Assembly (NCBI GenBank): GCA_020723305.1
Contig: DYJC01000002.1
Location: forward strand, 372,001-436,000
DNA: 64,000 nt
From: Desulfosudis oleivorans
Lineage (GTDB): Bacteria; Desulfobacterota; Desulfobacteria; Desulfobacterales; SURF-7
Direction: 5' to 3'
Each line of letters opens with the position of its first letter. Position 1 is the first letter of the stretch. Positions 2,496-61,733 of the stretch are shown piece by piece. A program made the position numbers and the translations under genes. The notes beneath the pieces were generated by a model, which was given only the letters and a program-made list of their open reading frames with translations, did no database searches and had not been told where the DNA came from.

Positions 2496-4640
2496 TTATC
2501 GGGGTATGGAAGAAATAATATACTGATATTCTTTGGTATTTCTGATATTTGACAGATCCTTATCCTGTTCCATCACTTCCCGTTTGGTGAATCCGTTTAT
2601 TACAGCTTTCCGCAGCCAGTGCAGTGCCTGTGATTTGTTGTTCCGCAGAGAATAGGCGCACGCTATATTATAATAGATGCGATTGTCATCCGGCTGTATC
2701 CGGAGCATTTGCTTGAATGTTTCAATGGCGCTATCATATTCTTTTGTGACCATTTGTACGGCGGCCTTTCCCTGCAGGGCTGGAAGATGCCTGCCGTCCA
2801 GGTACAAGGCTTGGTGATAGTAGTCCATGGCTTCCCTGAAATTCCCTTTCAGAAAATACAGACGCCCTAACCGGGAGAGATACTCAATATTCTGCGGCTC
2901 GGTTTTCAGCCTGTCGAGGGTAATACTGATCTGCCGGTTAAATTTTTCAAGGCCCTCGACAGCTCGCCGGAGGTTGGCCGGAGCATCCGGATGATTTGGC
3001 TGGAGACGAAGCGCTTCCCGGTAATGAAAAATTCCTTCTTCCAACTGTTTTTTATCGATCAATGCAACACCAAGATCATTATGCGCATCTGCCAACTCCG
3101 GATCGCTCTGCAGGGCTCTCCTGTAATAATCGATCGCCTCATCCAGTTTGCCTTTATGATAAAAGGCCAGGCCCATGTTGCGGAGGGCGAATTGATGATA
3201 CAAGTTCAACTGCAGCGCTTTTTGATAAGCGGCGATTGCCTCGTCCCATAGGCCTTCGGCTGCCAGAGCCTTGCCAAGGTTTGCATGGGTTCGATCTTTA
3301 TGCGGTGATTTTTTTACACAGTCCTGCCAAAAAACAATCGGACTTGACCAGATATTGTTTCTTTCAATTGTCCAGTATGCAAGTAAAACAGTGATGAGCA
3401 AATATAATCCCATCTTGAAACGGTCGGCGGTTATGAAACGCCAGAGCAGCGTAAGAACAATTACGCTCAGATAAACAGATGGAAGGTAGGTTCGATGTTC
3501 AAAAATCAAATCCACCGGAATGATGGACGATTCGATTGCCAGATTGCCGATAAACCAGAGTATCCCAAAAGAGAGGAGTCGTTCTTTTTTTGAAACGGCG
3601 ATGGCAAACAGGACAAGGCCAATCAGTATGCCGGCCGATAGAAGTGTCGTAATGGGATCGGTAAACGATTGTGAAATCGTAAAATCATAATCAAAGTTCA
3701 GTCTATCCGGATGGGGAAAAAAGAATAAGCTTATATAATGTACGACCACGCGAAATTCTGTCAGAACGCGTTGATACATCGTAAACGGAAAACCCGCATA
3801 ATAGGTCGCAAAATAAGATTTCAGATAGCCAAAACCGATAATTAGCTGAAATAACAGAATCGAAAGCAACGTAACAATGATGGTGCCCCCGAAAAAGAAT
3901 GTAATGGCTTTTTTGCGAAGGCCTTGAAAGAAAAATAGTTCATACAACAAAATGTAAAACGGTAACGTGACCGCTATCTCTTTGCAGCCCAGTGCCAGAA
4001 GACCACTGATAAAAGAGCCTCCGAATAAGAGATGGCTGGTATAGGTTGTTTGATTCGAAATGGATGCAGCCTGAATTTTGTGTTTTCTTCCCTGAATATA
4101 AAGAATCATGGAAAGCAAGAAAAACAGGCATGCCAGGCTGTTCATCCGTTGCACGATGTATGTAACTGAGTTTGTTTGAAGAGGATGCGCAAGCCAGATC
4201 AATGATGAAAAAAATGGTATATATAACAAATGAGGCAGCCCATGGTCGGTAATCGTGCCCCCTTGTCCGTTTTCCTGCAACACCGTCAAGGTCTTTTTTA
4301 CCAATAGATAAATGAGGATCCCGTTCAGGATATGAATGATGACGTTTACCAGATGGTAGCCAAATACATCCAGTCCTCCCCAATAATAATTCAGGGCAAA
4401 CGTTGCGGTTGAGATGGGCCGAAGGCCATAAACGAATCTGAACATATTGCTGACAATTATCCACGATAGCTCCGTAAGGTGCAGATTGGGATTCTGCGTA
4501 ATCGTGATTTCATCGTCAAAATTAAAAGGGTAGTGAAGGGTGTGTGCATACAGCAGGAAAGTAAAAACTGATAAAACAGACAGTAGAATTAAATCAGCTT
4601 TGTAAGAAATTGTTGATTGTTGTTTGCGTTTTTTACTCAT
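2496..4640 (-). CDS. TMTC-like GT-C membrane protein with C-terminal TPRs
   Basis: An integral membrane protein of about 714 residues. The first 430 or so form about 11 membrane segments; the loop after the first carries FDDEITITQNPN, the acidic loop motif of GT-C glycosyltransferases using polyprenyl-phosphate sugars. The C-terminal 280 residues hold about seven tetratricopeptide repeats (for example AIAAYQKALQLN, AIDYYRRALQSDP), ending in an NIACAYSLRNN...DKDL..IRNT block. The start is placed at the second ATG (4640), which has AGAAAG just upstream. The layout resembles TMTC-type O-mannosyltransferases and bacterial relatives. A GT2/DUF2304 pair next door could supply a lipid-linked sugar donor. 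Acceptor unknown. Confidence 0.75.
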   Translation of the reverse strand: MSKKRKQQSTISYKADLILLSVLSVFTFLLYAHTLHYPFNFDDEITITQNPNLHLTELSWIIVSNMFRFVYGLRPISTATFALNYYWGGLDVFGYHLVNVIIHILNGILIYLLVKKTLTVLQENGQGGTITDHGLPHLLYIPFFSSLIWLAHPLQTNSVTYIVQRMNSLACLFFLLSMILYIQGRKHKIQAASISNQTTYTSHLLFGGSFISGLLALGCKEIAVTLPFYILLYELFFFQGLRKKAITFFFGGTIIVTLLSILLFQLIIGFGYLKSYFATYYAGFPFTMYQRVLTEFRVVVHYISLFFFPHPDRLNFDYDFTISQSFTDPITTLLSAGILIGLVLFAIAVSKKERLLSFGILWFIGNLAIESSIIPVDLIFEHRTYLPSVYLSVIVLTLLWRFITADRFKMGLYLLITVLLAYWTIERNNIWSSPIVFWQDCVKKSPHKDRTHANLGKALAAEGLWDEAIAAYQKALQLNLYHQFALRNMGLAFYHKGKLDEAIDYYRRALQSDPELADAHNDLGVALIDKKQLEEGIFHYREALRLQPNHPDAPANLRRAVEGLEKFNRQISITLDRLKTEPQNIEYLSRLGRLYFLKGNFREAMDYYHQALYLDGRHLPALQGKAAVQMVTKEYDSAIETFKQMLRIQPDDNRIYYNIACAYSLRNNKSQALHWLRKAVINGFTKREVMEQDKDLSNIRNTKEYQYIISSIPR

Positions 4641-4706
4641 AACATAACTTTCTGGTTTCATGAAATCATGTCTATATTTATTCCCCCTATAGTTGTTCCA
4701 TATGAC

Positions 4707-7045: not shown

Positions 7046-8908
7046 TTATGGTGTTTTTAAGTCTGCTGAGACAAGTTTTTTAAAAAATACCGTATTCCTC
7101 ATATTTTTTAAATCATGGTCGAACCGCAATCGGTTGTAATCATGATAGCCGTTTTCAATTGCTTTTTTCAGCGCCGTAACAGCTTGTTCCAGTTTATTTT
7201 GAATGGAATAGACACAAGCCAGATTGTAAAAAACATCGGCTCTTTTTGGCGCAATTACAATAATTTTATTGAAAAAAGTAATTGCATCGTCATACTTTTT
7301 TTCCTGTGCATAGATCAGCGCAATGTCTTTCATTGCATCAATGTCCGAATCATCGATCATCAGAACCTTGAAAAAGCAGTTTAACGCTTTATCCGTTTCA
7401 CCTCTTCTTTGATATGCCCGCCCCAATTTTTTTAGCAAGGAAACATCATCCGGATTGGATAGGAGCATTTGTTCAAGTGCTGTTATTTCCGTATTCAGTT
7501 TTTGTATAATGTCATATGTGATGCGAAGGTTTTCATTTGATTTTATATGATTGGGATCAAGGTGAAGGGCATGTTTGAATGATTCAACGGCCTGCATGAA
7601 CTGTCTTGCTTTTAAAAAAGCAAATCCCAAATTGCAATAACTGTCTGGGTCGTTCGGCTTTACGGCTGCCGCTTTTTTAAAATATTCTATGGCGGCCCCG
7701 GTTTCGCCCCGAATCAGCAGATCATTTCCCATGGTTGCGAAAATCGCCTCCGGCAGAAAAGCAAGGAAGGTGTGGCGTTCAATTCCCTCTTCAATGACAA
7801 TATCCGGTTTTATCTTTTTGATGAGATCCTCTATCACACTGTAATCAAACTTGGATGCGATGTATGCGCCGTGTCGGAAATGCTGTGCAAAGAAGGGGAG
7901 CAGAGCATCGAAAAACGAATCGCGAAAGACAATGCAATTTGCTTCCGTCTCCTGGTTTGTTGTTTCAAAAGGCTGGAACCACCAGGGCCAGCCGGTAACG
8001 GCCCATTTTGGATTATCATTTTTAAGGAAGGAACTGTTTTTCAGACTGTATGAAGGGACATTGAATTCCGTCAAATCCGGAAGACCGATCAGTTTGGCAA
8101 GATCTCTCCCAGATTCAGATCGTTCTTCTATCTCAAGATTTGATTCCGGAATACTGCTGTGCACCTTGACCGAGGCTGTTTTGATCCTGTCTATAATGCG
8201 CTGATATGCGATAAAAGCGCCTCGATCATTCCAGTGAGAATCCGTCTTGAAATAAATGCGTCCTTGATTTTTTGTATTTATCAGGACCGCTCGGAGATCA
8301 AGGATTTGCAAGTCGGAATTTTGTTTCATATACTCCAGAAACTGGTCAAGTTGGGTCTGTCGCGAAACAACTTTAAATCGTTCCGGAAAATATTCAGGAT
8401 AGACGGTCTGCTTATTGGGGACGGCGATATAAATATAGTGAATGCCTCTTTTGCCGAGCCAGTCCCGTTTGGTTTCAAGATTCCGTCTCATTCCTTCAAG
8501 TTGTAATTCCGATAGTTTTATCAAACCACGGAAATCATCGGAAAGAGAGATCCCGAAAGTATCCGTCTGATAAAACAGCCAGCCATCTTTACCGATTGCG
8601 ACCTGCGGGTTGGGAGATTTTTTCAGCCATCTGTATTTGATCAGGTTATTGTTGTGTATGAGCCAATCTCTGAATCCAAAGTGATCCTTGATGTATAATT
8701 CAAAATTTTCAGGGAAAGTTTTTATACTTGGGTAATCCCATGTTAAATCTGGAAACCGGGCGAGAGTCCTCTTCTCTATTTGTGAGATGGTTTCACCGGT
8801 CTGTACTGTCATCAAAATACCCGGCATAAATATAGATAACAGAAACAGAAAAGCTATAGTCGCGTTGTAGAATCGGAAATTACTAAATTTCATTGCAGAT
8901 GCTGTCAT
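7046..8908 (-). CDS. AlgJ/AlgX-like O-acetyltransferase with TPR tail
   Basis: A protein of about 620 residues, anchored by an N-terminal membrane helix. A periplasmic SGNH-like acetyltransferase domain follows: QIEKRTLARFP, GKDGWLFYQTD, catalytic Asp/His in KTDSHWNDRGAF (about residue 223) and the nucleophile Ser in FRDSFFD (about 329). From about residue 400 there are some seven TPRs ending in an NLACVYSIQNK...NMRNT block very like the end of the 2496-4640 product. The next gene upstream is an MBOAT, the usual partner that passes acetyl groups across the membrane. The start is uncertain: GTG at 8971 (overlapping the MBOAT gene), ATG at 8908 or ATG at 8893, none with a clear ribosome binding site. 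Confidence 0.8.
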   Translation of the reverse strand: MTASAMKFSNFRFYNATIAFLFLLSIFMPGILMTVQTGETISQIEKRTLARFPDLTWDYPSIKTFPENFELYIKDHFGFRDWLIHNNNLIKYRWLKKSPNPQVAIGKDGWLFYQTDTFGISLSDDFRGLIKLSELQLEGMRRNLETKRDWLGKRGIHYIYIAVPNKQTVYPEYFPERFKVVSRQTQLDQFLEYMKQNSDLQILDLRAVLINTKNQGRIYFKTDSHWNDRGAFIAYQRIIDRIKTASVKVHSSIPESNLEIEERSESGRDLAKLIGLPDLTEFNVPSYSLKNSSFLKNDNPKWAVTGWPWWFQPFETTNQETEANCIVFRDSFFDALLPFFAQHFRHGAYIASKFDYSVIEDLIKKIKPDIVIEEGIERHTFLAFLPEAIFATMGNDLLIRGETGAAIEYFKKAAAVKPNDPDSYCNLGFAFLKARQFMQAVESFKHALHLDPNHIKSNENLRITYDIIQKLNTEITALEQMLLSNPDDVSLLKKLGRAYQRRGETDKALNCFFKVLMIDDSDIDAMKDIALIYAQEKKYDDAITFFNKIIVIAPKRADVFYNLACVYSIQNKLEQAVTALKKAIENGYHDYNRLRFDHDLKNMRNTVFFKKLVSADLKTP

Positions 8909-8936
8909 TACTGTTAATTGACTGATCTTGGAAGTT

Positions 8937-10388
8937 CTAGAATCGGAAGTAAATAAACGGGTTATATGCACCGGCGGCCAGACTCATTACCGAGGCAAGA
9001 AAAATTAAAACAAGTGTCAGCATGCTGGTGACAGCAGATACACTCTCCGGCCGACAGAATATGTTTTTCATATCCGTGGTTGATAACGTGCCCCATTGTT
9101 TCTGCACCCAGGGGAGTACCGGGATGGAAAAAATCGTCCCCGCAATCATGGTCAGGATGATTTCATTGTCCAAATAAAGACCTGTATGATGGATGATGCC
9201 GTCGCCTTGTGCTAATCCAAACATCGCACCAAGAAACGAGATCGCCTGCGGAAGTGTTTCCGCACGGAAGAAAACCCAGCAGATCATGACAACCAGAAGT
9301 GAATAGATATACCGGATCGGTGACCAGATACGGTTGATCAATTTTTCAAGCCCGATTCGTTCCAGCACCAGAAAAAGACCATGCATAAGTCCCCATATGG
9401 CAAAATTCCAGCTCGCCCCGTGCCACAGGCCGCAAAGGAAGAAAACCGTGACTAAATTCATGTATGTCCGGAATGTTCCGCATTTGCTTCCACCCAGCGG
9501 AATATAAAGATAATCGCGAAACCAGGTGGAAAGGGAGATGTGCCATCGCTTCCAGAATTCCCTGATGGATCGGGATATATAGGGGTAGTTGAAGTTCTCC
9601 AGAAAATGGAATCCAAACATTCGTCCCAGGCCGATGGCCATATCGGAATATCCGGAAAAGTCAAAATAAATCTGAAGCGTATAACAGATGATGCCCAGCC
9701 AGGCGAGGCTGAATGTCAGATGTTCGGACGGGATCGCAAAAATTTTATCCGCAGCCACGGCAACGGAGTTTGCGATCAGCACTTTTTTCCCCAATCCAAA
9801 AATGAAGCGTTCAATACCTTCTGCAAAATCATTCAAACTGGTTTTTCGGGAAATAATCTGCTGGGCTATATCGCTATAACGGACAATTGGCCCTGCGATC
9901 AACTGAGGGAACAAAGAAATGAAAAGGCCGATATTCAGCGGATTTTTTTGCACCGGTACTTCATTCCGGTATACATCGATCACGTAACTTAATGCCTGAA
10001 ATGTAAAAAAGGAGATGCCGATCGGCAGATGGACAGGGTCAACCTGTATCGGTCCTGCCAGAACATCAGAAAAAATCTGATTGAAATTGTTGACCAGAAA
10101 ATTGGTATACTTATATGCAACCAGCAGTCCGAGGTTCACGGTTACTGCAAAACCGAGAAACAGCTTTGCCCTGGTACTGCTTCTGAATTTATCGATCATC
10201 AGGCCAAACAGGTAATTCGCTGAGATAGAAACCAGCATAATCAAAACATAAAATGTCTCTCCCCATGCATAAAAGAAAAGACTGGCAAACAACAGAAACA
10301 GATTCCTGAATCGTTTTCCTATCGGGAAATGGATCAATAACGTGACCGGTAAAAATAAAAACAGAAAAATAATTGAACTGAAAACCAT
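8937..10388 (-). CDS. MBOAT O-acyltransferase (AlgI-like), module 1
   Basis: A polytopic MBOAT protein of 483 residues. The start is placed at ATG 10388 because GGAGT lies 8 nt upstream and the family begins MVFSSIIFLFLFLP. Motifs include YFDFSGYSDMAIGLG, FWKRWHISLSTWFRDYLYIPLGG, WHGASWNFAIWG (about residue 323) and the catalytic His in LMHG (about 334). It moves acetyl groups from the cytoplasm to the periplasmic face for the adjacent AlgJ-like enzyme. It is the first of three MBOAT genes in the window. Confidence 0.9.
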   Translation of the reverse strand: MVFSSIIFLFLFLPVTLLIHFPIGKRFRNLFLLFASLFFYAWGETFYVLIMLVSISANYLFGLMIDKFRSSTRAKLFLGFAVTVNLGLLVAYKYTNFLVNNFNQIFSDVLAGPIQVDPVHLPIGISFFTFQALSYVIDVYRNEVPVQKNPLNIGLFISLFPQLIAGPIVRYSDIAQQIISRKTSLNDFAEGIERFIFGLGKKVLIANSVAVAADKIFAIPSEHLTFSLAWLGIICYTLQIYFDFSGYSDMAIGLGRMFGFHFLENFNYPYISRSIREFWKRWHISLSTWFRDYLYIPLGGSKCGTFRTYMNLVTVFFLCGLWHGASWNFAIWGLMHGLFLVLERIGLEKLINRIWSPIRYIYSLLVVMICWVFFRAETLPQAISFLGAMFGLAQGDGIIHHTGLYLDNEIILTMIAGTIFSIPVLPWVQKQWGTLSTTDMKNIFCRPESVSAVTSMLTLVLIFLASVMSLAAGAYNPFIYFRF

Positions 10389-10413
10389 TATTTTTTTACT
10401 CCATATTCCAATC

Positions 10414-10479
10414 AATTCCCCCTTTGAAGGAGAAATTAATAAGCTAATTCCCCCTTTGAAGGGGGACTAAGGGGGATGT
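10414..10479. repeat. C-rich palindromic repeat, third copy (direct halves)
   Basis: ATTCCCCCTTTGAAGG is present twice in the same orientation (about 10414 and 10447). The second copy continues GGGGGACTAAGGGGGATG. Same family as the repeats at 4707 and 6064 but with a TTTGAA centre. It fills the gap between the MBOAT and GT4 genes. Confidence 0.7.
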
Positions 10480-10481
10480 CA

Positions 10482-11618
10482 TCATAAACAAACAATCCGC
10501 TTGAATTCACATTCAAGTTCTTCTCCGATTTTTTCCCAGGTGTATTTCCCAACTACTTTTTTTCTGGCGAGCTCCCCCATCTTTTCGCATCTGGATTGAT
10601 CTTCAGCCATAAATAAAATGCTGTTTTTCAAATCCGTCCGGGAACCGATTTTTGTTATCAGGCCGTCAACACCATGGTTGACCAGTTGTGAAGGGCCGGG
10701 AAGAGCGGACACGATAACAGGTTTTCCGGATGCCATGGCTTCAATAACAACCAGCCCGAACGATTCGGAATGGGTGGATGGGAGTACCAGAAAGTCACAC
10801 AGGTTGTAATACGCCGGTAGTTCCTTGTCCGGAAACTGGGGCCCGGCAAAGATAACTCTTTTTATTACTTCGCGTTCTTCAGCCTGTTTTTTGTATAAGG
10901 CCTCGCTGTAGCCGCCACCCACAACAAGCAGGACAAGGGTTTCATCTTCAATCTCAGCAATCACATCAATCAGAATATGGAGCCCTTTAAACGGAATCAG
11001 GTTGCCGACAAAAAGCGCCACTGTTTTATTTTCAAGACCATGTTTTTGGATCAGGTGCTTTTCTTTCTCCCTTGGCATGTATCGTTTGACATCCACACCC
11101 CCGTATCCCACTGTTGTAACTTTACTCCAGGGGATAAAGGCACCTGCTTTGGTTGATTTCAGATATTCATTTCCCGGCGAACAGATCCCTTGAGAGCTGT
11201 TTACGATTCGCTTTGTAAGGAGTGGTTCATATCCGGTAATCACTAGCTTTTTCAGTTTCGTGTCTCCAAATACATCCATATGATAGGTAAGGAAGTAGTT
11301 TTTCTTTTTAAAAAGATGAGCCAGATACACATATTCGGCAGCCCCGAAAAAAGGGTAGTGAAGATGGATGATGTCAAACGAATCCAGCATCCGGTAAAGC
11401 TGCGGCACCATGCCCGCATCCCCATACTTCACAGGGGTTTTCAATCGAACGATCTGAAATTCTTCCGGGTCAGTCTCATAGACGGTCCGGCCGTAATTCA
11501 GTGTGAATACGGTTACATCATGATCCCTCTTTGCCAACTGCATAGAGTTATGAAAGCAGATGTAACCCATACCGCCATGAAGGGGAGGGAAGGTGCCTAT
11601 GATTTGTGCGATTTTCAT
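10482..11618 (-). CDS. Glycosyltransferase family 4
   Basis: A 378-residue GT-B glycosyltransferase. The N-terminal domain begins MKIAQIIGTFPPLHGGMGYI (glycine-rich acceptor loop). The C-terminal domain has ALFVGNLIPFKGLHILID, the E-x7-E motif region ESFGLVVIEAMASGKPVI, and a final GKYTWEKIGEEL helix. This is standard for retaining GT4 enzymes that use nucleotide sugars on the cytoplasmic face. The ATG at 11618 lies just after a CGGTTA-rich stretch and has no obvious ribosome binding site. Specificity unknown. Confidence 0.85.
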   Translation of the reverse strand: MKIAQIIGTFPPLHGGMGYICFHNSMQLAKRDHDVTVFTLNYGRTVYETDPEEFQIVRLKTPVKYGDAGMVPQLYRMLDSFDIIHLHYPFFGAAEYVYLAHLFKKKNYFLTYHMDVFGDTKLKKLVITGYEPLLTKRIVNSSQGICSPGNEYLKSTKAGAFIPWSKVTTVGYGGVDVKRYMPREKEKHLIQKHGLENKTVALFVGNLIPFKGLHILIDVIAEIEDETLVLLVVGGGYSEALYKKQAEEREVIKRVIFAGPQFPDKELPAYYNLCDFLVLPSTHSESFGLVVIEAMASGKPVIVSALPGPSQLVNHGVDGLITKIGSRTDLKNSILFMAEDQSRCEKMGELARKKVVGKYTWEKIGEELECEFKRIVCL

Positions 11619-11627
11619 AATAGCGGT

Positions 11628-11664
11628 TATCGGTTGACGGTTAACGGTATTCGGTTAGTGGTTG
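11628..11664. repeat. Short degenerate CGGTTA tandem repeat
   Basis: CGGTTA-type hexamers recur every 7-12 nt (CGGTTAT, CGGTTGA, CGGTTAA, CGGTATT, CGGTTAG). The stretch lies between the stop of the SGNH gene and the start of the GT4 gene. No function assigned. Confidence 0.5.
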
Positions 11665-11676
11665 GTTTCTCTTTTC

Positions 11677-12882
11677 TCAGGGAGTTATGGATTGCCTGGA
11701 GCATTTTGAGTGCATTGAGAATGAACTTTTTACTTGGCCGTTACAATTTTGACTTGTGATACTATTAACTTTAGAAGCTATGAATTTTCCTATAATTTCA
11801 GAATGTTTTTTGGAATAATGGCCTATAGCAATAAATTCATTTTCTTTTATCTTTTCATGCAATTCTTTGTTGATATCAATATAATCTACAGAATTTGGCA
11901 TTAATGAGACTATCTCATCATAGTATCTTTTCTCAGCGCCAGGTGTTGGAAGGAATACAAATAATACACGCTGATTTTTCCCCTCAAAATAACTTGTTAT
12001 AGAATTAATATAGTCAACAAAAAAACTAGAATCTGATAATTTTATTCCTGCATTTAGCTCAACTTTTTTGTTTTGATCTGTTGGAATTTTTAAGACAGTG
12101 AGAGCGTATTCGAAAAGTTTTTTCTTTATTTGGGATACTCTAAAATATAAATCATCAAGGTTGTTGCTGAGACTGTGTATGATAATGCTATTATAATATA
12201 AATACCCTACTCTTTTTGCAATGCCATATTGGGGTTCAAGAAAAACTTGATCACGACTATAAAAGAATAATTTATCTATCGTTTTTTTTTTATCTTCAAT
12301 TATAGACGAAGTGTCTTGGATTTGTTTTTCTTCCCTCAATATATTCGAAATGTTCTTGTATTCTTTGAAACTTTTTAAATTTTCACCATAAAAAAAGCAT
12401 ATTATGAGTTTTGGATTAATCTGGTTCTCTAATTTTCTTTTATAAACTAAAAAATTTCGATGTATATTGGTGCCTGCCCAGGCTGTATTAAAAACATTTG
12501 AAGGTAAGTCAAGATTGTTTTTTATGTGGTAATGAATTGTTTCACTGTCCTCCATTCCATAACCGAAAATCATTGAAGCACCTCCAATCAATACGATATC
12601 ACGCTCTGCAGCGGAATTCATTGCTGGATTTCTAAAACCATTATTATCAAGTGTGAGTCTTTTTAAAAAAGTTTTATCTTTATGCCTCATCCAGCCTCTA
12701 TAATTAGGCGTGAATATATAATAAAGAGACGAATCTGGAGTGTGAATATTTGATGTAAACCATTTTGACATCAAAATCGTTGGGGAGTAAACTAAATTTA
12801 AAAAGCCTTCAGCAATTAGAATACTGAATACGGAGATGAGTGTATATTTTACAATAGACTTGATCATATTTGTAATTGTCAA
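11677..12882 (-). CDS. SGNH-hydrolase-like acetyltransferase partner, module 2
   Basis: A 401-residue protein with one N-terminal membrane anchor and a presumed periplasmic domain. Block I of the SGNH fold is visible as IGGASMIFGYGM (about residue 103), and a late IGHYSKKHSEI segment (about 355) is a candidate for the His-containing block. The C-terminus is Ser/Gln-rich. Its start overlaps the stop of the MBOAT gene upstream by 4 bp, and it takes the place of AlgJ, so it is inferred to be the periplasmic O-acetyl transfer enzyme of the pair. An A10 run in the coding strand near 12282 (Lys codons) is a possible slippage site. The family is too divergent for a firm name. Confidence 0.65.
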   Translation of the reverse strand: MTITNMIKSIVKYTLISVFSILIAEGFLNLVYSPTILMSKWFTSNIHTPDSSLYYIFTPNYRGWMRHKDKTFLKRLTLDNNGFRNPAMNSAAERDIVLIGGASMIFGYGMEDSETIHYHIKNNLDLPSNVFNTAWAGTNIHRNFLVYKRKLENQINPKLIICFFYGENLKSFKEYKNISNILREEKQIQDTSSIIEDKKKTIDKLFFYSRDQVFLEPQYGIAKRVGYLYYNSIIIHSLSNNLDDLYFRVSQIKKKLFEYALTVLKIPTDQNKKVELNAGIKLSDSSFFVDYINSITSYFEGKNQRVLFVFLPTPGAEKRYYDEIVSLMPNSVDYIDINKELHEKIKENEFIAIGHYSKKHSEIIGKFIASKVNSITSQNCNGQVKSSFSMHSKCSRQSITP

Positions 12883-14312
12883 AACTGGAAATAAAGAAAT
12901 GGTACTGTTTTCCCACTAACACTGATTATCATTAAAATCATAATTGTATAAAAACTGTATATAAACTCTTTTGGCTGTTTCAAAATAATCATCTCATTTC
13001 CTTTTATTTCTTGTATGATATGCAGTCCGATTAAACAAAGAAAGGTGATCCCAATAGGAGTCGCTATTGGTAAACAATTATCTGTATAATGAAAATTTGT
13101 GAATACATTTTTCACATATAAAGGCAGCATGCTAAGATCTGATAATCTAAATAACAACCATCCAATTAAAGTTAGCAAATACATAGCGATGATTTTCATT
13201 ACTCTTTTGACTTTTGGATATATCCTTAACGTAAAAGGTAGTGAAATACGATAATCACGCAAAATGTGCTCAAATATTAGCAAAAGTCCATGATACCATC
13301 CCCAAAGTAAAAAATTCCAGGACGCTCCATGCCAAAGCCCCCCTAATACCATTGTCAACATTAAATTATAATATTTCCTAAAGTTTGATACCCTTCCTCC
13401 ACCAAAACTGAAATATAGATAATCTCTTAACCAGAATGATAGGCTTATATGCCACCTACGCCAAAAATCTCTTGGGGATATTGCCAAGTAAGGCCTATTA
13501 AAGTTTTTAGTTAAATCAATTCCCATTAACTTCGAGATTCCAAGTGCTATATAGGAATAACCTGCAAAATCTCCATATATTTGTAGTGAAAAGGCAACCA
13601 ATCCCAATAAACTTATCACTCCTGAAGTCGATTCCAGGTTTTGGAATGAATATTCAACATACTGAGCCATGTTATCGGCGATTATTATTTTTTTAAAATA
13701 ACCGATTGTTATCCAGTAAATCCCTTTCGAAATATCATTTCTTGTAATATTTCGTTTATTTGTAATTTGAGGCAATAAATTTGAGGCCTTCTCAATTGGG
13801 CCGGCTACTAGCTGAGGGAAAAAAGAAATATACAATGCAAAATTAACAAAATTGTTTGTTGGTTTAATTTCATCCCTATAAGTGTCAACTGTATAACTAA
13901 TAATTTGAAATGTATAAAAAGAAATGCCAACAGGTAAAATAATAGAGAGAGTTGAAAAATGAGCATTGAGTCCAATATTTTCCATTAAATAATTGAAACT
14001 TTCTATTCCAAAATTGAGATATTTAAAGAAAAATAAAAGTCCTAAATTGATTGTGATACTAGTAATTAAATATGTTTTTTTTTGTTTTTTATTTTTTGTT
14101 TTATAGATTGATAATGAAAATAAATAATTTATTATTGTAGAAAATAGAATTAAACTTAAAAGTTTGTAATTCCAAGCTGCGTAGAATATATAAGATGCAA
14201 TTACTAATAACAAATTTTGGTAATGTACATCTTTTTTTGTTTTAAAAAAAAAGATATAAAGGGAGTAAACAACAATGAAAAAAATAAGGAATTTGATACT
14301 TGTAAATATCAT
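12879..14312 (-). CDS. MBOAT O-acyltransferase, module 2
   Basis: A polytopic MBOAT of 477 residues. The start is placed at ATG 14312 (MIFTSIKFLIFF), with AAAGG 8 nt upstream. Motifs: GDFAGYSYIALGISKLMG, RRWHISLSFWLRDYLYFSFGG, WHGASWNFLLWG (about residue 327) and the catalytic His in WYHG (about 339). It ends with the family's typical FLYFQF. It forms an overlapping pair with the SGNH-like gene. The sequence around its start (GAGACCTTTGCACAA at 14316) resembles the ends of the inverted-repeat element at 52025. Confidence 0.9.
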   Translation of the reverse strand: MIFTSIKFLIFFIVVYSLYIFFFKTKKDVHYQNLLLVIASYIFYAAWNYKLLSLILFSTIINYLFSLSIYKTKNKKQKKTYLITSITINLGLLFFFKYLNFGIESFNYLMENIGLNAHFSTLSIILPVGISFYTFQIISYTVDTYRDEIKPTNNFVNFALYISFFPQLVAGPIEKASNLLPQITNKRNITRNDISKGIYWITIGYFKKIIIADNMAQYVEYSFQNLESTSGVISLLGLVAFSLQIYGDFAGYSYIALGISKLMGIDLTKNFNRPYLAISPRDFWRRWHISLSFWLRDYLYFSFGGGRVSNFRKYYNLMLTMVLGGLWHGASWNFLLWGWYHGLLLIFEHILRDYRISLPFTLRIYPKVKRVMKIIAMYLLTLIGWLLFRLSDLSMLPLYVKNVFTNFHYTDNCLPIATPIGITFLCLIGLHIIQEIKGNEMIILKQPKEFIYSFYTIMILMIISVSGKTVPFLYFQF

Positions 14313-14349
14313 TATGAGACCTTTGCACAACTTACAAAGAGTAATTTAA

Positions 14350-15189
14350 TTATATGAAATTAATTGTAAATTGGTTGCCGATTTCTTTTTTACGAGCAAC
14401 CCATATATCCTGTATGCTGGAATCAAACCTGCCATTGTGCAATATATCAAAAGACTTCAATAGGTTGTGGCGAACAAACTTTGGCGAATGATAAGCTTGA
14501 TACCATTTCTTCCCTTCTTTTACGTCACCTCGCACAACTAACTTGCCGGAATCATATAAATGTTTTTCATGTGATAAGAGTCTGTTCGTTGTAAGGTCTC
14601 CATGGGTAGTAATAATAATTAAACCGCCAGGTTTTAAAATGCGCTCTATCTCTTGTATCCATTGAGTGTGCATTTCTTCGGATAAATGTGTAAAAACCGA
14701 TATAGCATATACACAATTGAAAAAAGCCGGTTGAAAAGAAAGAGGCGGCTCTAATTGATTTACGATAAACTGAATTCCTTTTATATTTTTCTGGTTCCAC
14801 TTTATCGATTTTTTATTATAGTCTGATCCATACAATTCAACATCATTTTTTAACAGATTTCTAAGATGCCGGATTATGCGCCCGGGGCCACACCCCCACT
14901 CAAGAACTTTGAAATTGCTGGTGATTTTTTCTTTGTTTATAATGTCTGATATTACGGTTGAACTGTTCACTCCCTGATCAAAATATGAAGGCCAATGAAT
15001 ATTACCATAGGCATCAAACGCAAGTCGTGCAGGTGGAACTGGAAAGTCCTTATGATTTAAAAGAAAATCTCTATTAATTTTTCTGTTTTTAATCAGGCTG
15101 TGAATTCCAAGTATATAATCAGCAACTGAGATAAGTTTTAATTTTTTTAATATTTTCGAAATGATATGTACAGTTTGGAAATTCATCAT
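14350..15189 (-). CDS. Class I SAM-dependent methyltransferase
   Basis: About 280 residues. The start is placed at ATG 15189 (MMNFQTVH) because AGGAG lies about 8 nt upstream; the longer frame runs into the mobile repeat at 15219. Motif I is VLEWGCGPGRIIRHL, the acidic loop is ELYGSDYNKKSI, and the motif after strand 4 is CVYAISVFTHLSEEMHTQW, followed by LKPGGLIIITTHG. These are Rossmann-fold methyltransferase features. A methylated sugar position in the glycan is the likely product; the substrate cannot be read. The gene is followed by MBOAT module 2. Confidence 0.85.
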   Translation of the reverse strand: MMNFQTVHIISKILKKLKLISVADYILGIHSLIKNRKINRDFLLNHKDFPVPPARLAFDAYGNIHWPSYFDQGVNSSTVISDIINKEKITSNFKVLEWGCGPGRIIRHLRNLLKNDVELYGSDYNKKSIKWNQKNIKGIQFIVNQLEPPLSFQPAFFNCVYAISVFTHLSEEMHTQWIQEIERILKPGGLIIITTHGDLTTNRLLSHEKHLYDSGKLVVRGDVKEGKKWYQAYHSPKFVRHNLLKSFDILHNGRFDSSIQDIWVARKKEIGNQFTINFI

Positions 15190-15218
15190 TTCATGATCTC
15201 CTGGTTCTATATTTTTGA

Positions 15219-15360
15219 GAGCCAATCTCAAAATGATAAAAAACCGTCACACCGGCGAAGGCCGGTGTCCAGAAACGAAGTAAAAATACGGGATATCACT
15301 TCACTTTTCTGGATTCCGGCCTTCGCCGGAATGACAACAAGAGACTTTTGAAATTGGCTC
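15219..15360. mobile_element. MITE-like inverted-repeat element, copy A (142 bp)
   Basis: Long imperfect inverted repeats begin GAGCCAATCTCAAAA at the left and end TTTTGAAATTGGCTC at the right. Inside are CACACCGGCGAAGGCCGGTG and CCGGCCTTCGCCGG. TTGA flanks both ends (15215-15218, 15361-15364), consistent with a 4-bp target duplication. There is no coding capacity. It lies just upstream of the methyltransferase start at 15189. Confidence 0.85.
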
Positions 15361-15401
15361 TTGAGCTAACTCAATTTTCAGAAATACCGTTAACTGCTGT
15401 T

Positions 15402-16325
15402 TTAATATGTCTTATAATATTCATTCCACCGGAGCCCCATCTTTTTTATATATTGCCAATTCAGCATCTTGATATCGGCGGCCCTGATATACTTGTTCAT
15501 CTGAAAATATTTGATCAGGGATAAAAAGACCGCAATTCCTATCGTTAACGGTTTTGACATTCTGAAATATTTTTTTACCACATTTTCGGCAACCTGATAA
15601 CAATACCCATAAACCCGATTTGCCGGAGCCCATCCATAATGCTTGAAAGCAGTCTCCAGTGTTTCCTTGCTGTTGGGCAAAGCTTGTATATCGTCCATCG
15701 TTTTTGAAGCAGTATGCAGCCGGTTGTTGGAAAGATATTCTGCAAGATAGAACGCTTTAGAATTTTTTATTATTCTAATCCAGAGGTCATAGTCCATTGT
15801 GTAAGAAAGGGATTCATCCAATTCACCGGCTCTGTAAAATGCATCTCTTGTAAAAAAGGCCGAGGGTTGGGAAATAAAATTGAACATTGCCAGGCGGTTG
15901 TAATTGAATGGTTCCGTTGGATAGCTCCCGATAATATCTCCGTTTTTATCCGTGAAGTATGATTTCCCATAAACAAGTTTCACTTCCGGATTGGTCATAA
16001 AGTATTCCACAACCTTGGTGATCACTCCCGGCAAAAGGACATCGTCAGAATTTAGCCAGCATAAAATTTCACCTTTTGACATTCTGAAACCTTTATTAAT
16101 GGCATCTGTCTGCCCCTTATCTTTTTCCGATATCCAGGTGACCTGCTGATTATATTTTTTTAAAATCGATATGGTCTCATCCGTGGAGCCGCCATCTACT
16201 ATAATATACTCTTTGTGGGGGTAGTCCTGTGAAAGGATACTCTGGATGGTTTCTTCTATGAAATCGGCTTGATTATAGGAAGGGGTTATAATGGATATGA
16301 GAGGGCAGGATTTTTGAGCTTGCAT
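15402..16325 (-). CDS. Glycosyltransferase family 2
   Basis: A 307-residue GT2. The N-terminus is ISIITPSYNQADFIEETIQS, then IIVDGGSTDETISIL, the DxD-type CWLNSDDVLLPG, and a later YTMDYDLWIR typical of the acceptor half of capsule GT2 enzymes. A hydrophobic stretch near residue 270 may contact the membrane. Its start is 5 bp from the stop of the next GT2 gene upstream, so the two are probably translated from one message. Linkage unknown. Confidence 0.85.
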   Translation of the reverse strand: MQAQKSCPLISIITPSYNQADFIEETIQSILSQDYPHKEYIIVDGGSTDETISILKKYNQQVTWISEKDKGQTDAINKGFRMSKGEILCWLNSDDVLLPGVITKVVEYFMTNPEVKLVYGKSYFTDKNGDIIGSYPTEPFNYNRLAMFNFISQPSAFFTRDAFYRAGELDESLSYTMDYDLWIRIIKNSKAFYLAEYLSNNRLHTASKTMDDIQALPNSKETLETAFKHYGWAPANRVYGYCYQVAENVVKKYFRMSKPLTIGIAVFLSLIKYFQMNKYIRAADIKMLNWQYIKKMGLRWNEYYKTY

Positions 16326-16330
16326 TGGAA

Positions 16331-17176
16331 TTATCGGGTATATCTCTGTTGCTTCAGATCAAAACGAACGATTGTTTCTCTGTTCAAACGTTTTTTCAGG
16401 TCGTTTGGTAAAAGGAAATGCAATCTATCAAAAATATAGGCGAGATAGTTGGAAATTGTTGGTCGTTTTGCTAATGAATGCATTTCTTTTTTATAAGAAT
16501 GAAGATCAGCGGAGATCTGTCCCTGATGGATTTTCCAACCGCCGAGCCATGCTTCTATGATGAATAAATCAGTTTGTTCGGAGAATTTTTTCCACAAATA
16601 AAAATCTCCGGCAAACTGCAAAGATGCAAGTTTTTGCAAGTCAATCAAAGCCAGAAGATCATTTCTCCAGAAAGTTGTTTCCTGCTGGATAAACGGAAGA
16701 CGGCCGTCATAAAAACCGCATTGAATCAATTGACGTCTGTATTTGAAAGGCAGCCAGACACCAATCATATGGTTATATTCATTATATAAAATAGTTAGCC
16801 CTGTAATCCATTTTATCTTTGATTCCGAAAAGACTGTATTTACAATTTCGAAAGCATGAGGCGAGTATAGATCTCCTGCATTCAAATATGATATTGTATT
16901 GCCGGTAGCTCTTTTTAGACCCGCTGCCAATGCAGAGTACATACCACTGTCTTTTTTGGATTTCAACTCTATCTGTATGTGATTGTATGTTGCTTGACTC
17001 AATATCTTTTCTATTATGGGTATTGTTTGATCCGTTGATGCGCCATCACAGATAATATATTCCAGCTTAATATCCTTGTTGACGACAGCCTTGTTATTCA
17101 AGACAGAAAGGATGGTGTCTTCAATGTATCGTTCCGCATTGAAACAAGGGGTAATTACAGTAAATTTATTTTTCAT
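16331..17176 (-). CDS. Glycosyltransferase family 2
   Basis: A 281-residue GT2 beginning FTVITPCFNAERYIEDTILS, with YIICDGASTDQTIPII, KDSGMYSALAAGLKRATG and the acidic SYLNAGDLYSPH in the metal-site position (Asp once rather than DxD). Similar proteins are often annotated as WcaA-like or colanic-acid-type transferases. It lies between two other glycosyltransferase genes with short gaps of 5 and 14 bp. Confidence 0.85.
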   Translation of the reverse strand: MKNKFTVITPCFNAERYIEDTILSVLNNKAVVNKDIKLEYIICDGASTDQTIPIIEKILSQATYNHIQIELKSKKDSGMYSALAAGLKRATGNTISYLNAGDLYSPHAFEIVNTVFSESKIKWITGLTILYNEYNHMIGVWLPFKYRRQLIQCGFYDGRLPFIQQETTFWRNDLLALIDLQKLASLQFAGDFYLWKKFSEQTDLFIIEAWLGGWKIHQGQISADLHSYKKEMHSLAKRPTISNYLAYIFDRLHFLLPNDLKKRLNRETIVRFDLKQQRYTR

Positions 17177-17190
17177 TAAATACCGGATGA

Positions 17191-18432
17191 TTATGCTTTC
17201 ATTTTATACAGATCGATGTACATGTCAGTAACAATATCTATCGAAAGGTATTGCTGAATATGCTTTCGAGCGTTTATTGACAGCGTTTCCCATCTGTCCT
17301 TGTCTTCTATCACCCAGAAGATCCCGTTGGCAAGGTCTTCAGCATCAAATGCTTTTGCCAAATACCCGGTCATTTTATGCCTGATAACATCCTTAAGGCC
17401 GGTTGTATCAAAAGCAACCACCGGGGTACCGGATGAAAGGGATTCAAGCGCAGTAAGTCCAAAAGATTCCTGAAGTGACGGTACGACAACAACATCAACT
17501 GAATTATATAACAGTGACAGGCTTATTTCATCTTCCAGGCGACCGATGTAATGCGTTTTGACACCGATATCCGCGTCATTTTTTGGCGCTGACATGCCAA
17601 ATATTACCAGCTCGAGCGATTCTGCGGAATATTTTTCAATGAAGCGCCTGATTGCTTCCCGCAGTAGATGTAATCCCTTGTTTTTATCTGTATCAATGGC
17701 AATCGCACCGATCATGATTAATATTTTATTCATCGGCAGGTTGAGAAATTTTCGGGCCTCGGTCCGGTTGGTGGGTTTGAAACGATTGATATCAATACCA
17801 TTGGGTATTACATGAACTTCTCGATTGCGAAACAGACTGCTTGATTGAACACATTCCGCAAGCCATCTGCTTGGGGTAACAAGCGTCAAATCCAAATTTT
17901 TCCATGCTTTCTTTTTTCTCTGAATAATTTTCATTGAAAGGTCTGCAATCTTGTTGGATGCAAGGGCAGGGCATTTCCCGCAACTGTCCTGATATCTTTT
18001 ACATTCGAACGGGACATGGCAACCCCCTGTAAACGCCCACGAATCATGAAGCGTCCATACAATTGGTTTGTTTATTTCTGCCAGGGATTCAATCCGGAAA
18101 AAGCCATCGCCAATCCATTGCAGATGTATGATATCGGAATCGCTGTCTTTAATCCATTGAAATGGTTGCGGGGAAAACCGGGCAGCCGTGAAATAGATAT
18201 TGGGCCTGTTGCGGTAAGAAATGACAGAAAGGTATTCAATATATCGGCTTAGAATTAAAGAAATTCTTGCATGGCGGGTTGAAGGCCCCCAAACAGTGCA
18301 GTCGTCCGAAATCTTGGAGCTAACGATAAAACGTGAATCATGCCCTTTAATGCGCAAGGCATGATGAAGTCGATATGCGGATCGTGCCGCCCCACCTGTT
18401 TTTTCATATGTGCTGAAATGAAAAATTCTCAC
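17191..18432 (-). CDS. Glycosyltransferase family 4
   Basis: A GT-B enzyme of 413 residues. GTG at 18432 is preferred because AGGGG lies about 9 nt upstream; a TTG two codons further up is possible. The N-terminus has KTGGAARSAYRLHHALRIKG. The C-terminal domain has ILIMIGAIAIDTDKNKGLHL and the motif VPSLQESFGLTALESLSSGT with the two conserved Glu. CHVPFECKRYQDSCGKCPAL in the middle is a four-Cys cluster seen in a subset of GT4 enzymes. Specificity unknown. Confidence 0.85.
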   Translation of the reverse strand: MRIFHFSTYEKTGGAARSAYRLHHALRIKGHDSRFIVSSKISDDCTVWGPSTRHARISLILSRYIEYLSVISYRNRPNIYFTAARFSPQPFQWIKDSDSDIIHLQWIGDGFFRIESLAEINKPIVWTLHDSWAFTGGCHVPFECKRYQDSCGKCPALASNKIADLSMKIIQRKKKAWKNLDLTLVTPSRWLAECVQSSSLFRNREVHVIPNGIDINRFKPTNRTEARKFLNLPMNKILIMIGAIAIDTDKNKGLHLLREAIRRFIEKYSAESLELVIFGMSAPKNDADIGVKTHYIGRLEDEISLSLLYNSVDVVVVPSLQESFGLTALESLSSGTPVVAFDTTGLKDVIRHKMTGYLAKAFDAEDLANGIFWVIEDKDRWETLSINARKHIQQYLSIDIVTDMYIDLYKMKA

Positions 18433-18536
18433 CGACAAGCCCCTATACTTTTAGAAAGAGAACGAACGATATTTGATTGCATAGAAAATACGAATACTAC
18501 TCTCCGGATAGGATGCTGTTTTGAAGTCGATCCGTT

Positions 18537-19532
18537 TTATTTGAACCACTGCAAAATTGTTTGACAATGCTGCAAGGCACTATTTTTATTGTCATTAGGT
18601 ATCTCGGTACAAAGTTTTTGTAGTGATTTCTTTGTTGTCCCACTTCTGTATCTGTTTATTATATCCGTAAGAAAAGAGGTGTATATCGGGGCGCTAGTCT
18701 GATCCAGATGAATCCCATCCTCTGTCGAAAACTTTGAACAATCCTGTATTTGCAGAAAGACATATTGGTTGGGGGGAAAAACATCACATATCAATTTCCG
18801 TACACTTTCCATCAGTTTTGAATTGGCTAATTTTTCATCAATAGGCATTTCATAAAGAATGATTTCAATACCTTTTTCCTTAAAATACTCCTTGTAGTGT
18901 ATCAGCTTTTTTTTCTGTTCTTCAACGATGCTATCATGCGGAGGCTTAGAGTGGTCCGCAATAAGAATATCGAGCATAAATTTTTTAATATCGTTTCCTA
19001 CAGACGGATTTGCTTTACTATTCCCATTGGCAATTATCTTTTTTTCAGTACCGGGAACGAGCAAGTCTTTAATTTTCGGCAAAGACCAGAAGACGGCTGT
19101 GTTCAAGAGGCAGACCGGTTGATTTTTTTCCTGCAGAGCAGGGAAGATTTTTTTCAGCGTATATCGAATCGGCATAAAGAGGCCGTTCTGAAAATCTTCG
19201 GCAGCAGATCGAAAAATTTCATTCGTTTCAATCAAAACGATTCCCGGTTGGGAATCGGTTTTTTTTATGATATCCAGACCATCAAAAGCACTTTGGCCGC
19301 CGAATGAAAGATTGTAACAGTTTTTCGGCAGTAAGTCATCAACCAGGCGGACTGAAAGAGAAGAGCCAACAATGACAATTTTTTTATCATTCTGTTCGTA
19401 GATATAATTTTCAGCTGTTATAATATTGTCTTGCCACTGATGGCCGGGTGTAACTGAAAATTTGATTGCGGAGACAAATAAATTATACCCGAGAAAAAGT
19501 AACGTTGTTATGTAGATAGTTTTTTTTATCAT
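18537..19532 (-). CDS. SGNH-like acetyltransferase partner, module 3
   Basis: A 331-residue protein with one N-terminal membrane helix and a presumed periplasmic domain. KIVIVGSSLSVRLVDD (about residue 58) fits SGNH block I with Ser as nucleophile. The late STEDGIHLDQTSAPIYTSFL (about 270) supplies the Asp-x-x-His block V. The gene overlaps the MBOAT gene upstream by 1 bp, so it is inferred to receive acetyl groups from that MBOAT and put them on the glycan. It does not resemble the module-2 partner closely. Confidence 0.7.
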   Translation of the reverse strand: MIKKTIYITTLLFLGYNLFVSAIKFSVTPGHQWQDNIITAENYIYEQNDKKIVIVGSSLSVRLVDDLLPKNCYNLSFGGQSAFDGLDIIKKTDSQPGIVLIETNEIFRSAAEDFQNGLFMPIRYTLKKIFPALQEKNQPVCLLNTAVFWSLPKIKDLLVPGTEKKIIANGNSKANPSVGNDIKKFMLDILIADHSKPPHDSIVEEQKKKLIHYKEYFKEKGIEIILYEMPIDEKLANSKLMESVRKLICDVFPPNQYVFLQIQDCSKFSTEDGIHLDQTSAPIYTSFLTDIINRYRSGTTKKSLQKLCTEIPNDNKNSALQHCQTILQWFK

Positions 19533-20941
19533 TAAAACTGAAAATAAATAAAAGCATTGGAAGAGCCGCTGTTCGTAATAATCATGAAAAGAAGAAAACC
19601 ATAAACAGCGGGCTCTAAAAGTTTTTTATATGAAATCGAAGTCCGGTTTCGAAGAAGATATAGAAGGTGATAAACAACAATCGGAAAAGAATAGATCGCT
19701 ATCGGAAGTACAATATGTAAGTTGAAGCTGGTATTTATGTTATTGACTAGTGTGGCAAGGAAACTGACAACATGATTAAAGTCCGGCAGTTTAAAAAGAA
19801 GCCAGGCAACAGATACATATGAAAAAACCATAGCCACTTTTAAAGCGGTTATTACATTGTTCCTCGGAACTTTAATTTTGTCTCTCAGGAACCTTTCTAC
19901 TGCGAGAGCCGCACCATGTGCAAAACCCCATACGGCATAGCTCCATGCAGCACCATGCCAGAACCCACCAAGTACCATCACAATCATCAGGTTTATATAC
20001 GTTCTTTTTTTTCCTTTTTGATTCCCGCCAAGAGGGAAGTAAAGATATTCCTTGAGAAAGGTTGACAAAGAAATGTGCCATCTGGTCCAGAATTCGGAAA
20101 ATGATTGGGAGATATATGGGAAATTAAAGTTTTCCGGAAGCCTGTATCCAAAAAGACCTGCAACACCGATGGCGATCAGGGAATATCCGGCAAAGTCTGA
20201 AAAAATTTGAATCGAATATCCAAAGAGCATGGCTATGAGTGTAATGGCGGTTTGTCCCTGAAAGTACGGGTATGCAATCCAGAAAGTCATATCTTTCAGG
20301 TTGTCCGCAATTACCATCTTTAAAAAGTATCCGAGAACAAGCGCCTTGAAACAATGATCCCAGTCGATATCTTTTAAATATTTTGTTTTAATCTGGGGTA
20401 TGAAATCATGGGCCTTTACAATCGGTCCAGCTAAGATTTGCGGGAAAAACGATATAAACAGTGCAGTATTTATAGAGTAGTGCATGATGGATTTGTTATT
20501 CAGAACCTTGTATTCAGCTATCCTGTCGGATCGGAAGCTGTCTACCAATAGGGTTATTCCCAGAAAGGTAAAAAACGAAATCCCGATCGGCAGAGGAATC
20601 ATCATAAGGAAATGCCCGACGGAATTTCCTTGCGGGAAGAAGGATTTTCCGAACAAAGGGCTGTATTTAAAAAAAGCAAGCGTCAGCAGGTTTAAACATA
20701 CACCTGTTGCTGCGTATGCCTTTCTATATTTGAAACTGCCTGAAAAGACAAGGTAACTGGTGATCGTATTGATGATGATGGAAAAAGTCAAAAGCAGGAG
20801 CAGCTTCGGGTGGTTTGCTGAATAAAAAATAAAACTCGCTAAAATTAGCAGTACAGGCTGCCTATTTTTAATTGGCGGTAAATAGTAGATAAAAAACGAA
20901 ACCGCAACAAGTGCGATAAATTGGTAACTGTTAAAAAGCAT
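19532..20941 (-). CDS. MBOAT O-acyltransferase, module 3
   Basis: A polytopic MBOAT of 469 residues. Motifs: IFSDFAGYSLIAIGVAGLFG, RWHISLSTFLKEYLYFPLGG, WHGAAWSYAVWG (about residue 329) and the catalytic His in FAHG (about 340). The ending AFIYFQF matches the other two MBOATs. It overlaps its SGNH partner by 1 bp. Third MBOAT/SGNH pair in the island. Confidence 0.9.
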   Translation of the reverse strand: MLFNSYQFIALVAVSFFIYYLPPIKNRQPVLLILASFIFYSANHPKLLLLLTFSIIINTITSYLVFSGSFKYRKAYAATGVCLNLLTLAFFKYSPLFGKSFFPQGNSVGHFLMMIPLPIGISFFTFLGITLLVDSFRSDRIAEYKVLNNKSIMHYSINTALFISFFPQILAGPIVKAHDFIPQIKTKYLKDIDWDHCFKALVLGYFLKMVIADNLKDMTFWIAYPYFQGQTAITLIAMLFGYSIQIFSDFAGYSLIAIGVAGLFGYRLPENFNFPYISQSFSEFWTRWHISLSTFLKEYLYFPLGGNQKGKKRTYINLMIVMVLGGFWHGAAWSYAVWGFAHGAALAVERFLRDKIKVPRNNVITALKVAMVFSYVSVAWLLFKLPDFNHVVSFLATLVNNINTSFNLHIVLPIAIYSFPIVVYHLLYLLRNRTSISYKKLLEPAVYGFLLFMIITNSGSSNAFIYFQF

Positions 20942-30709: not shown

Positions 30710-30851
30710 GAGCTAATTTCAAAACGATGAAAAACCGTCACACCGACGAAGGCCGGTGTCCAGAAAAGAATTGAAAATACTGGATAGCACTTCATTTCTC
30801 TGGATTCCGGCCTTCGCCGGAATGACAACAACGGACTTTTGAAATTGGCTC
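30710..30851. mobile_element. MITE-like element, copy B (142 bp)
   Basis: Ends GAGCTAATTTCAAAA and TTTTGAAATTGGCTC, with the same interior as copy A including the extra 20 nt that copies C and D lack. It has entered the 3' end of the 30792-32384 gene, so that gene's last 17 codons are read from the element. Flanks (tata / tact) do not give a clean 4-bp duplication. Confidence 0.85.
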
Positions 30852-57916: not shown

Positions 57917-57943
57917 TATTTTTTTCCCCTTTTAATAGAGCCG

Positions 57944-58010
57944 GTTTCAAAAGTTTGTTGATGTCATTCCGGATTTAATCCGGCATCCAGCATTTACCCA
58001 ACAGTTTTGA
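57944..58010. repeat. Half copy of the MITE-like element
   Basis: AGAGCCGGTTTCAAAAGTTTG followed by GTCATTCCGG...CCGGCATCCAG matches one inverted end and the adjoining interior of copies A-D, but the other end is missing. It lies in the gap between neuC and neuA. Confidence 0.65.
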
Positions 58011-58027
58011 TTACACCGGTTTTATGG

Positions 58028-60224: not shown

Positions 60225-60263
60225 TAATGACTTCCATGATCCGGCAAATAGTTTCAGTCAAGG

Positions 60264-61577: not shown

Positions 61578-61733
61578 TTTTTTATTAACCCTATATGTTC
61601 CTTGAGGGGGGAGAGCATTTGTTTCGGTGGAAAGGCATTGCCATTGATACAAGGTTTGTTAAATCCGTAAGTCATTCTATCAGTAATGATAAAATTGAAA
61701 ATAGGGATAAACACAATAACCCGATATTGTATA

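Follow-up and report, generated by a model that had tools for sequence, protein, structure and literature searches.

The stretch of 64,000 nucleotides of Desulfosudis oleivorans analysed here (assembly GCA_020723305.1, contig DYJC01000002.1, positions 372,001 to 436,000; hereafter the window) carries, within positions 7046-20941 and on the minus strand, three genes encoding membrane-bound O-acyltransferases (MBOATs), each joined at its 3' end to a gene for a membrane-anchored SGNH-type protein. The first MBOAT, M1 (8937..10415, 492 aa), matches PF03062 with 102.1 bits against a cut-off of 27 and ends in FIYFRF, with the putative shuttle Tyr489 at 8949-8951 and the catalytic-type His332 at 9420-9422; its partner, S1, lies at 7046..8971. 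The second, M2 (12879..14330, 483 aa, 87.7 bits), ends in FLYFQF, with Tyr480 at 12891-12893 and His334 at 13329-13331, and is followed by S2 (11677..12882, 401 aa). The third, M3 (19532..20941, 469 aa, 93.1 bits), ends in FIYFQF, with Tyr466 at 19544-19546 and His329 at 19955-19957, and is followed by S3 (18537..19532). The genes of the three modules overlap by 35 nt for M1/S1 (provided that S1 does begin at the listed GTG), 4 nt for M2/S2 and 1 nt for M3/S3, so that the description given by the first-pass annotation, of three AlgI-like MBOATs each overlapped or closely followed by an SGNH-like partner, is accurate in its genes and coordinates. All three partners begin with a transmembrane segment, judged by eye from the hydrophobic N-terminus and, for S3, also seen in the structural model as an N-terminal helix (residues 2-22).

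The His of the WHG motif is aligned in M1, M2 and M3, and all three proteins end in FXYXXF with its Tyr. For PatA, the excerpted report PMC12148441 describes auto-acetylation of the Tyr of the FXYXXF tail from acetyl-CoA and a requirement for the His of the MBOAT; PatB, as described there, accepts an O-acetylated FIYANF peptide as donor. Since the catalytic His and the shuttle motif are retained in all three, each MBOAT should be a PatA-like relay. A loose FXYXXF-type end is found in 147 of the 151 MBOAT frames of the collected loci (duplicates and the window's own copies counted), and the motif is therefore a mark of the whole class, not of this island in particular. Searched against the complete assembly (5.4 Mb, 47 contigs), PF03062 had M1, M2 and M3 as its sole matches; they span 11.2 kb, and the probability that three random points fall equally close in 5.4 Mb is about 1e-5. 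PF03062 matches occur in 82 of 297 sampled genomes of the phylum (the source genome counted), and three MBOATs within 15 kb were seen in two of the 297, the source genome and G258, a count taken from the table by eye that is a lower bound in draft contigs. The clustering of the three modules is thus real and beyond chance.

The first-pass annotation had also proposed that the modules are independent, which is borne out by a tree of 145 MBOAT rows: M1, M2 and M3 fall in three different clades, each with a different kind of partner. A recent local duplication of one module was considered and rejected on the basis of these three clades and of the identity of M1 and M2 to M3 (33-42%). The partner type tracks the tree, the ALGX label changing 2 times against 27.8 in shuffles, the S3 label 2 times against 4.0 and the strong S2 label 5 times against 9.8, with 83 of the 145 rows labelled 'none', which means a neighbour matching none of the three profiles or a locus too short; one row (L011) carries this label wrongly, an overlong start of the reading frame having exceeded the distance limit although an S3 gene is present. 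The base composition of the modules also differs, with GC contents of 44.2/40.7% for M1/S1, 28.9/30.3% for M2/S2 and 39.2/37.2% for M3/S3. MBOAT genes are also found on contigs classed as viral (L118-L130), most of them with an FXYXXF-type end, and four of these (L124, L126, L127 and L129) form a tight clade.

The S1 protein consists of an ALGX domain (PF16822, 84.4 bits, cut-off 26.5) followed by C-terminal tetratricopeptide repeats (TPRs; TPR_1, 108.6 bits), which cover approximately residues 414-636 (7064-7732). Its sequence matches in the PDB are PatB1 (6e-11) and AlgJ (2e-8). The triad is D244, H246 and S352, in which D244-S-H246-W stands upstream of R-D-S352-F, the permuted order; a circularly permuted SGNH order with D-x-H-W before the Ser is described for AlgJ in the excerpted report PMC4148444. 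A P-x-K at residues 185-187 resembles, by eye, the Pro/Lys signature of AlgJ. S1 is accordingly a circularly permuted SGNH protein of the AlgJ/AlgX type with a full triad. Its repeats set it apart: compared for TPR similarity only, the TPR region had no match below E 0.1 in 29 ALGX-type partners that stand beside other MBOATs (24 of them uncut), and the 383-aa partner of G300, a genome of the same family, had no TPR match. All three ALGX proteins of the congener G297 are, by contrast, ALGX-TPR fusions. The TPRs of S1 are related to those at the C-terminus of a protein with multiple transmembrane segments encoded at 2496..4661 on the minus strand (30% identity over 223 aa), which has an ortholog (51.7%) at the corresponding position of G297. 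Of the whole system, the transferases with fused TPRs are the most novel element.

The S3 protein has no Pfam match above the cut-off (best E 0.086) and none in NCBIfam at E 1; PHROGs and PADLOC were not searched. Its relatives adjoin the four closest relatives of M3, in Dysgonomonas, Pedobacter, Rhizobium johnstonii and Bradyrhizobium, and further ones occur in G263 and G297. The residues S58 (19359-19361), G79 (19296-19298), N104 (19221-19223), D272 (18717-18719) and H275 (18708-18710), which correspond to SGNH blocks I, II, III and V with an Asp-x-x-His, are invariant in the seven aligned family members. An AlphaFold2 model built on an alignment of 18 rows (mean pLDDT 76.3, residues 153-185 and 319-331 poor) adopts an SGNH fold, with structural Z scores (VIA) of 12.7 for a sialate O-acetylesterase, the top match, 11.4 for TesA, 10.7 for OatA and 10.5 for both PatB and DltD; Foldseek alone was weak, with one match at E <0.001. 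This likeness of fold does not discriminate a transferase from an esterase. The five MBOATs of the M3 clade are grouped with an SH-aLRT of 100, each with an S3-type gene immediately downstream. In the 297 genomes the S3 profile has three matches (the source genome, G263 and G088), all adjoining an MBOAT, with the caveats that the match in G088 is weak (E 4e-6) and that a TAG interrupts the MBOAT of G263. Over six gene pairs, the identity matrix of M3 correlates with that of S3 with r 0.947, a value reached in 3 of 720 permutations. M3 and S3 are inherited together as a pair. No match to S3 was found by tblastn in plasmids. At the G263 locus (L187:4347-6723, on G263:C16), where an S3 homolog adjoins the M3-like MBOAT, the in-frame TAG may reflect decay, a sequencing error or readthrough.

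The S2 protein alone has no SGNH match in Pfam or the PDB, and its NCBIfam match to the GDSL family NF047474 has 24 bits against a cut-off of 300. It joins a GDSL/AlgJ-like family by iterated profiles. In the PDB, a profile that combines S2 with six relatives hits AlgJ with 2e-7 and GDSL esterases with 1.5e-5 to 9e-5, and a profile built from 12 relatives, S2 left out, matches S2 with 45.9 bits. Ser103 (12574-12576) is kept, with GDS changed to GAS. The probable His355 (11818-11820) is placed in block V by MAFFT only, the HMMER alignment to the 12-relative profile stopping at residue 358 without placing His355 there. Two residues before it stands Ile353 (11824-11826), at the position of an Asp in 12 of 12 relatives. 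Independently of any alignment, the whole protein contains neither DxH nor DxxH, its last Asp being residue 336; an E-x-H at 340-342 could possibly supply another His/acid pair. The first-pass annotation had named partners without a Ser-His-Asp arrangement as what would refute its proposal; the arrangement is present in S1 and S3 but lacking in S2, which on this point goes against it. The same annotation had suggested that the two divergent partners may be undescribed transferase families. This view is supported for S3, which has no family model yet keeps the SGNH residues and fold, but is weakened for S2, because membership of the wider GDSL/AlgJ-like family and the missing block-V Asp indicate a degenerate or re-wired member rather than a clearly new active family. 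Six of the 10 full-length matches of the S2 profile in the 297 genomes adjoin an MBOAT (four of the six were rows of the profile, and one is S2 itself), and the other four lie in genomes without any MBOAT match. The idea that S2 is a partner of MBOATs only is not supported, given these four matches in MBOAT-less genomes. Nor is the idea that S2 and S3 form one family, as their profiles initially find mostly different partners and merge into one SGNH superfamily only after iteration. Plasmids searched by tblastn contained no match to S2.

A search with S1 at E 1e-40 over 11 relatives (the source genome counted) found matches in the source genome, in G297, of the same genus, and in G300. The 29.6-kb contig of G297 (G297:C61; L194:1-20000, L195) carries an island that is syntenic in part, with four MBOAT genes, three ALGX-TPR genes, one S3 gene, one GDSL-TPR gene and three AT3 genes (one of them read in part, as it crosses the boundary of the examined locus), and shares the same flanking glycosyltransferases at 54.9-77.2% identity. 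An M1-like MBOAT (80.3%) is followed there by two tandem ALGX-TPR proteins, one of which is 57.0% identical to S1; an M3-like MBOAT (70.6%) is accompanied by S3 (53.2%); the third MBOAT is paired with an ALGX-TPR protein and the fourth with the GDSL-TPR protein. One MBOAT of this island may thus feed two transferases, a side observation suggested by the tandem pair. Between S3 and the ortholog of the glycosyltransferase at 10482..11618 (minus strand, between S2 and M1; 75.5%), a single AT3 gene of G297 takes the place of the three glycosyltransferase-like genes, the methyltransferase gene and M2/S2 of the window. M2/S2 was not seen in the 29.6-kb contig. Two acylation cassettes, M1/S1 and M3/S3, are therefore kept in the congener and others come and go, the evidence for turnover being that the AT3 gene stands where the window has four other genes and the low-GC M2/S2. 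M1/S1 and M3/S3 would be the competent core, and M2/S2 looks like a later low-GC arrival in which the catalytic acid of S2 was lost or replaced.

We propose, with a probability of about three in four, that this surface-glycan locus has acquired three MBOAT-SGNH acyl relays separately. The MBOAT of each relay would load the Tyr in its own C-terminal FXYXXF tail with an acyl group (most likely acetyl, taken from acetyl-CoA) that it carries across the inner membrane. The tail would then offer this group to the membrane-anchored SGNH partner, whose Ser would receive it and transfer it to a glycan hydroxyl in the periplasm. The glycan of the locus would be the target, and each module might serve its own site or sugar. 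The wider window contains NeuB, UDP-GlcNAc 2-epimerase-like (NeuC-like), CMP-sugar synthetase, ABC exporter, Polysacc_synt_2 and hexapeptide acyltransferase genes, and resembles in this O-antigen or similar surface-glycan loci. Adjacency to the NeuB, NeuC-like, CMP-sugar and ABC exporter genes makes one surface glycan the likely target of the three modules but is no proof of it, and the idea of the first-pass annotation that the modules jointly produce a single, heavily acetylated glycan is an unproven inference. Several observations weigh against the proposed relays. The acyl group and the acceptor are not readable from the sequence. At E 1e-40, S1 finds no match in two further genomes of the genus, which are 89% and 85% complete. 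The branch that leads to M2 is long and stands apart from the other MBOATs that have strong S2-profile partners, and S2 has its Ile353 in the place of the acid. The single-sequence structure prediction of S2 reached a pLDDT of 34.8, and the assignment of its fold rests therefore on the profile matches.

It is a serious possibility, although one to which we give less than even odds, that M2/S2 is not a working transferase, S2 being a decayed or structural partner and the active modules numbering two. The loss of the Asp found in all 12 relatives, the GAS in place of GDS and the absence of DxH and DxxH are in agreement with this, as are the low GC content and the fact that the pair was not seen in the congener contig. 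On the other hand, S2 retains a full frame of 401 aa and the 4-nt overlap with M2, its Ser103 and aligned His are kept and the motifs of M2 are intact. Moreover, the acid is not universal in such partners: in an archaeal metagenome-assembled genome (Thermoplasmatota), the SGNH-like gene just before an MBOAT (L030:3943-4998) has Thr-Gly preceding the block-V His and no acid at -2 or -3, and a Glu stands at -3 in four rows of S3-side relatives. The E-x-H at 340-342, as a possible other His/acid pair, also speaks against a loss of function. S2 need not be dead, given its full-length frame and the other MBOAT neighbours without the Asp; it may be weak, act with Ser-His only or use another acid.

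It can also be considered that the three modules modify different polymers, for example one the surface glycan and another peptidoglycan or a lipid-linked glycan, and that they stand together because the island gathers envelope genes. As M1-M3 are the only MBOATs of the genome, any MBOAT-based acetylation of peptidoglycan must use one of them, and the resemblance of S3 to PatB, OatA and DltD at similar Z does not discriminate between acceptors. This explanation is nevertheless unlikely, since all three modules lie among glycosyltransferases, in one direction and with short gaps, and M1/S1 and M3/S3 are found in the same frame of glycosyltransferases in the congener. The proposition that the SGNH partners are esterases, removing acyl groups added by something else, draws on the sialate O-acetylesterase as the top match of the S3 model and on the acetylesterase activity of AlgJ in vitro reported in the excerpt of PMC4148444. 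We regard it as very improbable: each partner is membrane-anchored and joined to an MBOAT with a shuttle tail, as in PatAB and AlgIJ, and Z differences of 1-2 do not separate an esterase from a transferase.

The proposed relays would work in the PatAB/AlgIJ mode, a known class of mechanism whose sequence features are carried by M1/S1 and M3/S3, while M2/S2 fails one of them. Like PatA and PatB, the modules have separate genes for the MBOAT and the membrane-anchored SGNH protein, the catalytic His and the FXYXXF tail, and the S3 fold resembles that of PatB (Z 10.5); unlike them, they stand in a surface-glycan locus, and S3 has no detectable sequence family in common with PatB. M1/S1 is similar to the AlgI/AlgJ/AlgX system of alginate and to WssH/WssI of cellulose in combining an MBOAT with a permuted ALGX-type SGNH protein with D-x-H-W before the Ser. 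It differs from AlgJ in having C-terminal TPRs in the same chain; in alginate systems, according to the excerpt of PMC9734138, the TPR protein AlgK is separate, and AlgK and AlgX bind each other and the polymer. No alginate gene set came to notice around S1, although none was looked for. DltB/DltD share the MBOAT/SGNH logic, and the alignment of DltD with the S3 model, at 222-225 residues, is the longest among the rows read, but the three MBOATs score 150.7, 167 and 153.8 bits against the TIGR04091 cut-off of 375 and have their own shuttle tail instead of DltX. Islands with several modules are not unique to the source genome. In G258, four MBOATs lie within 34 kb; every one of them has a neighbouring gene, and three of these neighbours match the S2/S3 profiles. 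A Bacteroidia locus (L057) has two complete tandem MBOAT/ALGX pairs, and a third MBOAT there is truncated by the end of the contig; together with G297, these are comparable arrangements. The L057 pairs are closely related and of the ALGX type, whereas in the window three MBOAT clades each bring a partner type of their own. What is unusual is this mix of modules, the TPR fusion on one partner and the missing catalytic residue in another. In the open full-text literature, nothing was noticed on several MBOAT modules per glycan locus or on SGNH-TPR acyltransferases, which is weak evidence, as subscription papers were mostly outside its scope.

The fusions suggest a tethering principle that has so far been seen as two proteins (AlgK and AlgX). 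It can be hypothesised, although we consider it rather doubtful, that the genus has built self-contained acyltransferases, an "AlgK-AlgX in one chain", by placing a shared TPR module on two SGNH chassis of opposite active-site order, the permuted ALGX (S1 and three G297 proteins) and the canonical GDSL (one G297 protein), each with its own MBOAT. The TPRs, related to those of the island's membrane protein, might then be a shared means of docking or of holding the glycan, by which several interchangeable cassettes could act successively on the same nascent glycan. Three pairs of separate descent in one locus (four in the congener) offer a setting in which single deletions could tie each pair to a site, and so bear on how a cell places each acyl group on a glycan with several MBOAT systems. 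S3 stands for a partner family that no Pfam or NCBIfam model covers and that has been passed on with its MBOAT in at least three groups (this phylum, Bacteroidota and Alphaproteobacteria), and S2 tests the need for the catalytic Asp.

A methyltransferase gene and three glycosyltransferase-like genes fill 14350..18438 on the minus strand, between M2 and S3; the methyltransferase (14350-15231) and one glycosyltransferase (15402-16325) were assigned by Pfam, and the two other glycosyltransferases by reading the translations of their open reading frames. The genes for the CMP-sugar synthetase, the UDP-GlcNAc 2-epimerase-like protein, the NeuB-like protein and the ATPase and permease of the ABC transporter lie at 57197..62597, also on the minus strand. 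Proteins of the hexapeptide-repeat acyltransferase type are encoded at 23690-24340 and 30792-32384, the latter with its hexapeptide domain behind a glycosyltransferase-like N-terminal part, and cytoplasmic sugar acylation by these two proteins may add to the MBOAT modules. Finally, a 951-aa protein encoded at 54367-57222 has an N-terminal part that resembles, by eye, a capsule/teichoic-type transferase, followed by FG-GAP-like repeats at the C-terminus.

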